From Histomonas meleagridis (taxonomy: Eukaryota; Parabasalia; Tritrichomonadida; Dientamoebidae): a DNA stretch of 64,000 nucleotides. The notes below the pieces were generated by a model. The model was not told where the DNA came from, made no database searches, and was given only the letters and a program-made list of their open reading frames with translations. This document shows, piece by piece, positions 1,201 to 58,131 of the stretch. The stretch is taken from assembly GCA_020186115.1 (NCBI GenBank), contig WSYJ01000092.1, positions 532,001 through 596,000 on the forward strand, read 5' to 3'. Each line of letters begins with the position of its first letter. Position 1 is the stretch's first letter. Position numbers and translations under genes: made by a program.

Positions 1201-2955
1201 ACAGCACTTATTTTGGCATCATCAAATGGTCATATAGAAATAGTTAAATTACTTCTTGAACAAGAAGGAATTGATATTAATGCTAAAGATATTTATTTGT
1301 TTTATTTAAAATTTATTTTAATAATTTCATATTTCAAAATAATATTTAGAAATTGTTTCAATCATTTAAAACAGCACTTATGTTTGCATCTGAATATGGT
1401 CATACAGAAATAGTTAAATTACTTCTTGAACAAGAAGGAATTGATATTAATGCTAAAAATATTAATTTGTTTTGTTTAAAATTTATTTTAATAATTTTAT
1501 ATTTCAAAATAATATTTGGAAATTATTTAAATTATTTTGGACAGCACTTATGAAAGCATCTTCAAATGGTCATACAGAAATAGTTAAATTACTTCTTGAA
1601 CAAAAAGGAATTGAAATTAATGCTAAAGATGTTTATTTGTCTCATTTAATATTTATTTTAATAATTTTATATTTTAAAATAATATTTGGAAATTATTTAA
1701 ATTATTTGAAACAGCACTTATTTATGCATCTTCAAATGGTCATACAGAAATCGTTCAGTTACTCCTTAAACAAGAAGGAATTGATATTAATAAAGATAAA
1801 ATTTATATGTTTTATTTAATATTATATAAAAATATATGAAAATTTTTTAAGTTATTTAAAACTGCATTTATGTATGCATCTGAAAAAGGTCATACAAAAA
1901 TAGTTAAATTACTTCTTAAACAAAAAGGAATTGATATTAATGCTAAAAATATTTATTTGTTTTATTTTGGGTTTGTTTTAATAATTTCATATTTTAAAAT
2001 ATTGCTTGGAAATTATTTAAAATATTTGATACAGCACTTATTTATGCATCTTCAAATGGTCATATAAAAATAGTGAAATTACTTCTTGAACAAAAGGGAA
2101 TTGATATTAATGCTAAAGATATTTATTTGTTTTATTTAATATTAATTTTAATAATTTAATATTTCAAAATAAAATTTGGAAATTATTTAAATTATTTGAA
2201 ACAGCACTTATGTATGCATCTGAAAATGGTCGTACAGAAATAGTTAAATTACTTCTTGAACAAGAAGGAATTGATATTAATGCTAAAAATATTAATTTGT
2301 TTTGTTTAAAATTTATTTTTATAATTTTCTATTACAAAATAATATTTGGAAATTATTTAAAATATTTAATACAGCACTTTTTTTTTCATCTAAAAATGGT
2401 AATACAGAAATTGTTAAATTACTTCTTGAACAAAAAGGTATTGATATTAATGCTAATGTTATTTATTTGTTTTGTTTAAGATTTATTTTAATATTTTGAT
2501 ATTTCAAAATAATATTTAGAAATTGTTTCAATCATTTTGGACAGCACTTATAACAGGATCTAGATATGGTAATACAGAAATTGTTAAATTACTTCTTAAA
2601 CAAGGAGGAATTGATATTAATGCTAAAGATATTTATTTGTTTTATTTAAAATTTATTTTAATAATTTCATATTTCAAAATAATATTTGGAAATTGTTTAA
2701 ATCATTTTGGACAGCACTTATGTTTGCATCTGAATATGGTCATACAGAAATAGTTAAATTACTTCTTGAGCAAGAAGGAATTGATATTAATGCTAAAGAT
2801 ATTTATATGTTTTGTTTAATTATTATTTTGATATTTTGATATTTCAAAATAATATTTGGAAATTATTTACATTATTTAATACAGCACTTATATTTGCATC
2901 TAAAAAAGGTCATACAGAAATAGTTAAATTACTTTGTGGGAAAAGTGATTTGTGA
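1201..2955 (+). repeat. Tandem ankyrin array 1: 11 modules, 170 bp period
   Basis: Eleven ankyrin modules begin with Thr-Ala-Leu codons at 1201, 1371, 1541, 1711, 1861, 2031, 2201, 2371, 2541, 2711 and 2881. All steps are 170 bp except 1711-1861 (150 bp). Each module reads TALMxASxNGHTEIVKLLL followed by EQxGIDINAKD and has no internal stop. Between modules lies an AT-rich spacer with a conserved core AATAATATTTGGAAATTATT. Several spacers contain stops in the ankyrin frame, for example in the units starting at 1711, 2031, 2371 and 2711. The last module ends in a plausible C-terminus (CGKSDL, TGA 2953-2955), which argues that the array is the 3' part of the gene starting at 113. How the frame is joined is unresolved. 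Confidence 0.85.
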
Positions 2956-3373
2956 AATGGATTCAAAATTAAAAAAAATGATTTACAAAATATTTTTTGG
3001 TGCACCCCCAAAAGTTAACATAACAAAAATTATCTTTCAATAAAAGTTAAGTCTGCATCACTTGTTGAAAAGTATTTTTTCTGGATGTTAGATATCAATT
3101 ATTTTTGAAATGACACAACAATATTTATACATATATGAATTGATTTATAGTAAATACTATTGATTTAATAGAACTAACTTTGAAACAGGGAATACATAAA
3201 ATTATATATTTGTGCTATCACCTTGCAGAATCTATAAATTTTGAACATTTGGCGATTATTTTACCTTGTGGCGCAACGATAGAAATTTTCAATACCAATT
3301 TTGTATGTTTTATAGTTATTTGAATTTCAATTTTTTCAAAAAAATATAACCGTCCAATTAACATCATATTATA
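2956..3373. other. Intergenic region, array 1 to membrane protein
   Basis: AT-rich and without a supportable gene on either strand. It must hold the promoter of the gene at 3374; a TCATATTATA stretch lies directly before that ATG. Confidence 0.5.
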
Positions 3374-55388: not shown

Positions 55389-56843
55389 ATGTCGATAGAA
55401 TTTCAAATCGATCCACAAAACTTCTCGATGTCTGATGACATTGTAGATAATAAAAATTCTGATTCTTATGATTTTAAATCTGCGCCCAACTCAATGGAAC
55501 TACTATGTATGCTCAAACAAATAATTTTTAATTTAACTCAAGATAATCTTGAAATGTCAATTGAAAAAACAATGAAATTATTAGATTTAAATTTCCCATA
55601 TTCGAATAATTTAATTATTAGCAATTTAATTTATTCCGCATTTTATTCAAAGAAAGATGTTAATCTCTTATATATAAATTATTTAGAATTAATACAGGCG
55701 AAAGAAGAAGAAATGAATAAAAATAATTTAAAAATTATTCAGATATTCAGTGACTATATAAGAGAAATCAAATCACAAGAATCATATTATTTGATAGAAA
55801 ATATGATTGAACGAAATTTAGCTGATCCAGACATTATCAAAGACATAAAATCAATATATTTTGCACACCATAAGCTCAATAATGAAATATATGAATTACA
55901 TTTCGCACCATTTTGGAAACAATTTAATGGAAATTGGAAAGAGCTTTCAAAGAATGATTGGGAGCTTCATAAGCAATTAATTAAAGAAGGAGTTAATCCT
56001 AATGAAATATCAAAAATAATTCGAAGTGATGAATTAGAAAAACTTCAAGAAATATCATCACAAGAAAATTTTAATTTTAATCAATATATTGAACCATCAC
56101 TTTATGAAAGATGTTCATTTATTAATCAAAAGAATGTTACATTAATTGATTATGCAGCATTTTTTGGATCTGTTAAATGTTTTAAATATTTACTTATAAA
56201 TGGTGCAAAAGTCGAAAATACAGGAAAATATGCAGTTGCAGGTGGAAATGAAGAAATTATTCATTTATGTGAACAAAATCATTCAACATTTGAAGGTGCA
56301 TATGAAACAGCAATTGAATTTCATCAAAATGATATCTTTAAATATATTTATGAAAAGAAATTAGAAAAGTTGGATGAAAAAGCTCAACAAAATATTTTTA
56401 GGAATGGAAAATTGCAACAATCAAGATTTGGAAATAATAATTATTATCGTTCTAATTATTCATTGAATAATATTAGTAATTTAGGATGCATATGTATCAA
56501 AAACGGAAATACTGAAATTTTTTTGTTTTTACATGAAAATGGAATGGAAATCAATGAATATATAATCGATGAAACAGTAAGAATTAGTAATATATATCTT
56601 ATTAAATATTTTCTCCAAAATAATTATATTCCAAAAAATATTATAATATTTAAATCTCTTTTAGAAAGTTTTGAAATAGTTCAATTACTTCTTGAACAAA
56701 AAGGAATTGATATTAATGCTAAAGATATTTATATATTTTATTATATATTTATTTTAATAATATTGTATTTCAAAATATTATTTGGAAAATATTCAAATTA
56801 TTTAAAACAGCACTTATATATGCATCTGAATTTAGTTGCATAG
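55389..56843 (+). CDS. DUF3447/ankyrin lead exon, array gene 4
   Basis: 484 residues to the stop inside the module after the first spacer. Motifs: NDWELHKQLIKEGVNPNEIS, RSDELEKLQEISSQENFNFN, LYERCSFINQKNVTLIDYAA and GKYAVAGGNEEIIHLCEQN. Compared with the other leads it has an insert of about 25 Asn/Arg-rich residues near 335-365. The true coding part ends at about EQKGIDINAKDIY (near 56730); the remaining residues translate the spacer. It probably continues through array 4 to 58131. ATG 55389 lies 55 bp from the divergent FOP-like start. Confidence 0.85.
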   Translation: MSIEFQIDPQNFSMSDDIVDNKNSDSYDFKSAPNSMELLCMLKQIIFNLTQDNLEMSIEKTMKLLDLNFPYSNNLIISNLIYSAFYSKKDVNLLYINYLELIQAKEEEMNKNNLKIIQIFSDYIREIKSQESYYLIENMIERNLADPDIIKDIKSIYFAHHKLNNEIYELHFAPFWKQFNGNWKELSKNDWELHKQLIKEGVNPNEISKIIRSDELEKLQEISSQENFNFNQYIEPSLYERCSFINQKNVTLIDYAAFFGSVKCFKYLLINGAKVENTGKYAVAGGNEEIIHLCEQNHSTFEGAYETAIEFHQNDIFKYIYEKKLEKLDEKAQQNIFRNGKLQQSRFGNNNYYRSNYSLNNISNLGCICIKNGNTEIFLFLHENGMEINEYIIDETVRISNIYLIKYFLQNNYIPKNIIIFKSLLESFEIVQLLLEQKGIDINAKDIYIFYYIFILIILYFKILFGKYSNYLKQHLYMHLNLVA

Positions 56844-58131
56844 AAATTGTTAAATTACTTCTTGAGCAAGAAGGAATTGATATTAATGCTAAAAACATTT
56901 CTTCGTTCAATATAAAATTTGTTTTAATCATTTGATATTTCAAAATAAGGTTTGGGAAATATTTAAATTATTTAATACAGCACTTATATGTGCTTCGAAA
57001 AAAGGTCGTATAGAAATTGTTAAATTACTTCTTGAGCAAGAAGGAATTGATGTTAATGCTAAAAACATTTCTTTTTTTAATATAAAATTTGTTTTAATCA
57101 TTCGATATTTCAAAATAAAATTTAGGAAATATTTAAATTATTTCTTACAGCACTTATCATTGCATATAAAAATTATCACATAGAAATCTTTAATTTACTT
57201 CTTGCGCAAAAAGGAATCGATATTAATGTTAAGAGTGTTTATTTTTTTGATTTAAAATTTAATTTTATATTTTCGAGTTTCATTATATTATTTGGAAATT
57301 ATTTTAATTATTTAAAACAGTGCTTATGATGGCCATAAAAAAAGGTCTTCTAAAAATTGTCAAATTACTTCTTGAACATGAAGGAATTGATGTTAATGCT
57401 AAAGATATTTATTTATTTTATTCAATATTTATCATAAAAATATTTAATATCAATGCTTTATTTGGAAATTATTTAAATAATTTAATACAGCACTTATTTA
57501 TGCATTTGAATTTGGTTACATAGGAATCTTTAAATTGATTCTTGAACAGGAAGGTATTAATATTAATACTAAAGATATTTATTAATAAAATTTAATATTT
57601 GTTTTCATAATTTTTAATTTCAAAACAATATATGGAAATTATATAAAATATTTCAAACAGTACTTATTCGGACATCTCGAACTGGTAAAATAAAACTAGT
57701 TAAATTACTTCTTGAGCAAAAAGGAATTGATATTAATGCCAAAAATATTTATTTGTTTTGTTCAATATTTATTATAATAATTTTATAATTCAAAATAATA
57801 TTTGGAAATTATTTAAATTATTTGAAACAGCACTTATGAAAGCACTTGAAAATGGTCAGACAGAAATAGTAAAATTACTTCTTGAACAAAAAGCAATTGA
57901 TGTTAATGCTAAAGATATTTATTTGCTTAATTTAATATTTGTTTTGATATTTTTGGGCTTCAAAATATTGTATGGTAATTATTTATTTTATTTTGGACAG
58001 CACTTACACATGCATCTCTAAGAGGTAACAAAGAAATGGTTAAATTACTTGAAAAAAGTGTCAATAAAAATTTAAAGCCCAAAAAACATAAATCAACAGC
58101 ATGTAACAATTATTATATAATTTTAATCTAA
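56808..58131 (+). repeat. Ankyrin array 4: eight modules, 170 bp period
   Basis: Module Thr codons lie at 56808, 56977, 57147, 57317, 57487, 57657, 57827 and 57997, all steps 170 bp except the first (169). All eight modules are open, including diverged ones (TALIIAYKNYHIEIFNLLLA at 57147; TVLIRTSRTGKIKLVKLLLE at 57657). Stops occur in the ankyrin frame within the spacers at about 56933, 57583 and 57785. The last module runs THASLRGNKEMVKLLEKSVN to ...NNYYIILI with TAA at 58129-58131, a natural-looking C-terminus. Confidence 0.85.

Follow-up and report, generated by a model that had tools for sequence, protein, structure and literature searches.

Internal eliminated sequences of ciliates are short A/T-rich inserts in coding sequence. 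Short non-coding blocks that would otherwise kill a gene are also described, in a recoding review, for Magnusiomyces capitatus mitochondria, where several of the 81 bypasses lack perfect take-off/landing matches, and for phage T4 gene 60 (PMC5009743). At the RNA level, two further papers report very short, A/T-rich spliceosomal introns: those of Stentor measure 15–16 nucleotides (nt) and are nearly fixed in length, with 92.8% exactly 15 nt (PMC9505925), and those of Trichomonas, 23–25 nt in type B, bear GT/AG ends and a 12-nt fused branch/3' motif (PMC12316389). Here we describe a window of 64,000 nucleotides of the Histomonas meleagridis genome (contig WSYJ01000092.1, positions 532,001–596,000, forward strand), which an initial annotation of the sequence had correctly attributed to a trichomonad. 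Its four repeat arrays are best explained as functional ankyrin-repeat genes whose turns are broken by 17-nt A/T-rich inserts between codons, and these inserts are probably left out between gene and protein, a reading to which we assign a probability of about 0.78. Related proteins are found among the trichomonad DUF3447 ankyrin proteins, such as P0018 of Tritrichomonas foetus, which shares the N-terminal domain and the ankyrin repeats; its repeats, by contrast, run unbroken in the protein record.

The initial annotation had reported four arrays of ankyrin modules with a step of about 170 bp, and an ungapped scorer for a 30-residue ankyrin module recovered all four independently at these steps. 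The same arrays were picked up by Tandem Repeats Finder, and one mononucleotide shuffle of the window, scored on a single strand, contained no module at equal score. The steps are 170 bp with a single exception of 150 in array 1; 170, 170, 170 and 171 in array 2; 170 save one 173 and one 153, followed by a broken end (224), in array 3; and 170 throughout in array 4. In arrays 2–4 the scorer added one module at the close of the preceding open reading frame (ORF), placing their start one module further upstream than had been annotated. The repeats have the 33–34 residues and the conserved TALxxA, LLL, N and turn Gly of the ankyrin family.

The spacer between modules, previously taken for one block of about 68 nt, is actually four 17-nt inserts, each followed by one codon. 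Column statistics on the 34 equal-length loops among the 38 of the window revealed conserved blocks alternating with variable triplets at a spacing of 20 bases, giving the layout NAKD-[17]-x1-[17]-x2-[17]-Gly-[17]-x4-TAL, with up to four inserts between successive codons of the ankyrin turn. When the 17-nt blocks are dropped, the four remaining codons match the turn D-x-x-G-x-T. For example, the loop at 1461..1540 (+) of gene 1, which precedes the module from 1541, has inserts at 1461-1477, 1481-1497, 1501-1517 and 1521-1537 and the codons AAA (1478-1480), TAT (1498-1500), GGA (1518-1520) and TGG (1538-1540). Elsewhere in the genome, arrays have steps of 102, 119, 136, 153 and 170 bases, among others, that is, 102 + 17n. 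Among 212 distinct loops from the window and the fetched loci, 193 have a length of 3–5 codons plus a multiple of 17 nt; as a chance baseline, 18 out of 120 possible lengths (6 to 125) qualify, and loops within an array are related. By length, 113 of these loops have four codons and four inserts, 41 have four and three, 19 have three and three, and seven have four codons and no insert. Moreover, single inserts are absent at varying codon boundaries with all four codons retained, as judged by eye in L024 (GAT and GGA adjacent) and L021 (GGA and ATG adjacent), and one loop of L004 has a single insert by eye. The length count supersedes an unconstrained parse of 215 loops, which placed 522 of 638 inserts in phase 0 and left 84 loops odd; the 25 odd loops inspected mostly held diverged inserts missed by the score. 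A second family of different 17-nt inserts tends to vary in whole 20-nt units of insert plus codon.

L004 (C55:498684-501971, -), an ankyrin gene of more ordinary build, combines several loops free of inserts with single sequence-diverged 17-nt inserts, such as TTTTATTCAAAGTGTTT between GGA and AAT. It perhaps represents an early stage.

The isolated loop triplets behave as codons, and the modules look coding and selected. At fixed positions in 135 loops (96 of step 170 and 39 of step 153, counted without de-duplication, tandem neighbours being related), none of 540 triplets was a stop, compared with 29.8 expected from column-wise base composition. The third triplet encoded Gly in 70 of 91 step-170 loops and in 33 of 39 others (103/130 in total). 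Array 3 offers 11 diverged loops for comparison, one more having been skipped because its length differs; their inserts were 22.5% off consensus, and GG was nevertheless retained in all 11 (GGA 9, GGT 1, GGC 1; P = 0.004). Comparison of units in pairs also shows a sharp step where insert meets codon: the difference is 0.126 for the final base of the insert, compared with 0.513, 0.424 and 0.495 for the three bases of the codon. These fixed-position counts of stops and Gly are independent evidence, unlike a forced parse of the window (150 inserts from 38 loops), which rewards the Gly codon and penalises stops, so that its 0/152 stops carry no such weight. In the modules, 2 of 4050 codons were stops, against 84.5 in neutral simulation (standard deviation 8.9; lowest of 200 runs, 60). 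Among these tests, stop avoidance is strong evidence for coding. The modules had been described as intact exons under selection separated by removed sequence; they are nearly free of stops, with a modest synonymous excess, and the intervening sequence must indeed be left out, but the absence of intron signals (see below) does not fit ordinary introns.

We then examined the scale of the system in the 43.3-Mb genome, in which the 17-mer ATTTATTTTAATAATTT occurs in 1912 exact copies, compared with 12 for the reversed control. Twenty isolated-looking copies were fetched from about 100 places listed, and a recognised ankyrin module adjoined 17 of them; of the other three, L029 continues as a normal loop, L030 looks decayed and L048 has no ankyrin nearby. 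The inserts of the sample are therefore almost confined to one turn of one repeat, genes outside this family not having been searched systematically. A genome search for loops lacking inserts, made with one strict pattern, gave no match; since the flanks of this pattern plus GG occur in 45 of the 154 insert-bearing loops examined, it had a fair chance of matching. Loops without inserts do occur with other module types (7 among 212). For the N-terminal domain, with 108 of 3770 candidates scored, at least 109 matches were found (one gene as two pieces) at 34–62% identity, all but one piece at 48–62%, and five of the 109 listed contain a stop, so this domain is being maintained. The family thus has at least about 100 members. 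The insert length, the codon-phase position, the coding behaviour of modules and isolated codons, the genome-wide scale and the absence of splice signals are read directly from the DNA; a machinery that leaves the inserts out is what we infer.

The second likeliest candidate for this machinery, possible although doubtful in our view, is that the inserts are micro-introns with 3-nt exons, excised from RNA by unknown or strongly altered splicing or by non-spliceosomal excision. A spliceosome is likely present in Histomonas, as U2 snRNA gave two matches, a family above the gathering score, and published Histomonas proteomics includes a PRPF8 entry (PMC10063853); fixed-length, A/T-rich tiny introns exist in Stentor (PMC9505925); and the inserts have recurrent 3' features, with A at the fourth base from the end in 373 of 444 and a TTT ending in 356 of 444. 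Against this, when registers -3 to +3 were allowed in step-170 loops, GT-AG ends were found in 1, GC-AG in 0 and AT-AC in 4 of the 444 inserts, and 119 of them contain neither G nor C. The 12-nt 3' motif that accompanies GT/AG in Trichomonas introns (PMC12316389), ACTAACACACAG, is essentially absent from the genome (3 exact copies vs. 2 reversed), and GTATGTN{1,30}ACTAACACACAG had no match there; native Histomonas introns therefore probably look different. No reference intron was obtained from the two poly(A) polymerase genes, which are a single ATG-to-stop frame (L049) and a single open frame (L050), and a GTAYGT...AG regular expression, applied to the fetched loci, matched at scattered places without convincing us. 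According to the Histomonas genome paper, genes have at most one intron (PMC8529796). Compared with tiny spliceosomal introns, the inserts lack both GT-AG and the Trichomonas 3' motif, lie between codons, number about 60 in a single gene and would leave 3-nt exons; where four of them follow one another so closely, known splicing factors would have scant room. Introns in the spliceosomal sense are thus not supported.

The likeliest machinery for leaving out the inserts, which we favour at a little short of even odds, would be a skip at the ribosome, that is, a programmed bypass of 17 nt. In the longest gene of the window, about 60 such omissions, each of 17 nt and one to a codon, would have to take place, upon which NAKD-x1-x2-G-x4-TAL would yield an ordinary ankyrin repeat of 34 residues, and the conserved nascent ankyrin segment preceding the insert might aid the bypass. 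We lean towards the ribosome because of the codon phase, the near-fixed length and the lack of RNA signals, including the absence of any consensus fold in 119 loops analysed with RNAalifold, and because the inserts cluster in the codons that follow one conserved peptide segment. Fixed length alone does not point to the ribosome, because the introns of Stentor hardly vary in length either (PMC9505925). As in known bypasses, the gap sits between codons and breaks the frame (17 nt; 193/212 lengths; 0/540 stops). The inserts resemble the Magnusiomyces and T4 blocks in interrupting genes that they would otherwise kill, and the Magnusiomyces bypasses also in their large numbers (PMC5009743); they differ in that they belong to nuclear genes, measure 17 nt with one codon between inserts, are very many and concentrated in ankyrin turns, and are putative bypasses. 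The inserts fit the description of neither a spliceosomal intron nor a classical ribosomal hop. They also share shortness, A/T richness and a position within coding sequence with ciliate internal eliminated sequences, but we know of no second nucleus in Histomonas.

Several observations weigh against omission of the inserts or against the ribosomal route. Nineteen of the 212 loops deviate from 3–5 codons plus a multiple of 17 nt: nine are one base over the commonest length, three would require two or six codons and seven are of other lengths. Several of the one-base-longer loops are near-identical tandem copies in L027, and the extra base lies mostly in homopolymers by eye. The two loops of step 136 have the length expected with two inserts but do not divide cleanly. 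A third module stop surfaced when later loci were added, and the module scorer penalises stops, so that stop-bearing modules are somewhat under-sampled. The dN/dS-type comparison proposed in the initial annotation gave a synonymous excess that is modest (259 synonymous and 703 nonsynonymous changes vs. 291 and 1003 simulated); codon position 3 varies no more than position 1 (0.335 vs. 0.36); and the changes in the Gly codon of 91 step-170 loops, 8 synonymous and 21 other, are near a neutral 1:2 by our own reckoning. At the ribosome, the take-off and landing triplets are identical in 5 of 444 inserts and their first two bases match in 11 of 444, and about 60 hops would be required in the longest gene of the window. 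To our knowledge, no cytosolic eukaryotic ribosomal hop has been described.

An unlikely alternative is that the arrays are dead, with translation stopping in the first inserts and the modules forming a non-coding or silent tail kept intact by recent expansion or gene conversion. The ORFs do terminate in or shortly past the first inserts, two loci (L030 and L044) look decayed or cut by eye, and the synonymous excess in modules is modest, points that favour this reading. However, stops are absent from the 540 loop codons and nearly so from the 4050 module codons, and the inserts differ by 26% pairwise, which indicates that the copies are not very recent. Moreover, the strict search for an insert-free donor loop found none, even though its flanks plus GG recur in 45 of 154 insert-bearing loops, and conversion from insert-free genes would be unable to keep single codons between inserts free of stops.

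Translation of the inserts into hydrophobic linkers, by way of frameshifting, is very improbable: on straight reading most of the consensus inserts are open, and three-insert loops (51 nt) keep the frame, judging by eye and from the homologue P0011, but insert type 3 has an in-frame TAA, four-insert loops change frame, and we rejected this reading because stops inside inserts are not avoided (in 96 units, those at codon offsets 3, 6, 9 and 12 number 22, 9, 72 and 8 out of 384). The reading of one conventional, roughly 68-nt intron in each repeat is next to negligible and was likewise rejected, for although the 170-nt steps and the stops of the spacer, present on straight reading as had been noted (108 in 96 units), would suit it, the steps follow 102 + 17n, the spacer contains codon-like triplets with Gly correctly placed, and none of 111 whole blocks has GT..AG in any of 13 registers in step-170 loops.

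The ORF at 50341-51561 has 57 homologues among the matches listed, many with DUF3447 and ankyrin domains. Fifteen ENA-derived DUF3447 proteins of the same kind (P0001–P0014 and P0016), from contigs of about 1–6 kb, were read; P0001, the one compared with this genome, reaches 59% in its best full-length match. Eight of the 15 (P0001, P0002, P0003, P0004, P0005, P0007, P0009 and P0013) stop one residue past the NAKD position, and P0011 appears to read through 51 extra bases with a translation that agrees with three inserts. Together, these ends and P0011 suggest that the inserts probably predate H. meleagridis or at least extend beyond this strain; perhaps the ENA homologues come from a relative that carries these inserts as well. 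A search with a piece of P0011, aimed at joined ankyrin proteins, returned only P0011 and one other ankyrin protein, P0058, which looks unrelated. The annotated family member P0017 ends within the first loop by eye.

The isolated codons specify surface residues of the ankyrin turn that are variable, positions randomised too in designed ankyrin binders, and in the present loops these codons are highly variable. Mutual information between loop codons was not above that of shuffles, as 29–153 of 300 shuffles reached the observed value across six pairs, so the inserts may provide short stretches of homology that allow codons to be exchanged singly. A speculative proposal, to which we give distinctly less than even chances, is that cytosolic Histomonas ribosomes skip thousands of 17-nt gaps, one at each turn codon, guided by the nascent ankyrin segment, and that the inserts isolate surface-exposed turn codons as three-letter cassettes, thereby diversifying binding loops codon by codon. 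If ribosomes skip the inserts, this would be bypassing in nuclear mRNA on a scale beyond the cases known to us; removal at the RNA level would instead amount to splicing that uses no known signal and has one-codon exons. By either route, ordinary gene finding would miss the protein products, as ORFs end in the first inserts and P0017 in the first loop; with at least about 100 family members, a noticeable share of the parasite proteome may be unread. Literature searches on Histomonas introns, splicing and ankyrin, on short introns and on bypassing showed no comparable case among the papers listed, in a collection that lacks most subscription journals, and the main text of the genome paper does not contain the word ankyrin (PMC8529796).

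Each of the four arrays is joined in frame to an upstream ORF of 348–484 residues (113-1159, 16158-17468, 50341-51561 and 55389-56843), and DUF3447 (PF11929) scored 30.2, 43.3, 38.9 and 33.2 bits in these, above the Pfam curated cut-off of 26.9 in all four. When the ORFs were scanned, Pfam ankyrin models were above cut-off in ORFs 2, 3 and 4 and not in ORF 1, the end of which is a weak partial module by eye. In gene 1 (+), the N-terminal region (113..1120; its ORF enters the first insert) is followed by an array of inserts, loop codons and modules (1121..2955), and the first loop (1121-1200; four inserts; codons AAA GAT GGA GTA, that is, K-D-G-V) leads in frame to the first full module. Gene 2 (-) has its N-terminal region at 16344..17468, in frame with module 0, and an array of five modules and four loops at 15582..16343, one loop being parsed with an 18-nt insert that bears a T6 run. 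Gene 3 (-) consists of an N-terminal region (50470..51561) and the most diverged array, 17 modules with 16 loops (47440..50469), including a three-insert loop at 48104..48166 (NAKD-AAT-insert-AAT-insert-GGA-insert-GAA; four codons, one insert short). An additional broken module lies at 47539 inside its degenerate 3' end, where a scrambled module and an A-rich run (47440-47560, -) resemble a recombination joining two module fragments. Gene 4 (+) has an N-terminal region at 55389..56636, in frame with module 0, and nine modules with eight loops of four inserts each at 56637..58131.

A partial fifth gene at 32872..33195 (-), its loops read by eye, carries the second insert family (ATTCATTTGAATAATTT / ATATGTTTTAATAATTT) in the order loop of six inserts and six codons, one module, three-insert loop and short coding tail; it has no intact N-terminal ORF immediately upstream. 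Finally, a near-perfect 87-bp tandem duplication (98% matches) at 52908-53088 overlaps the ORF at 52849-53301 (-).

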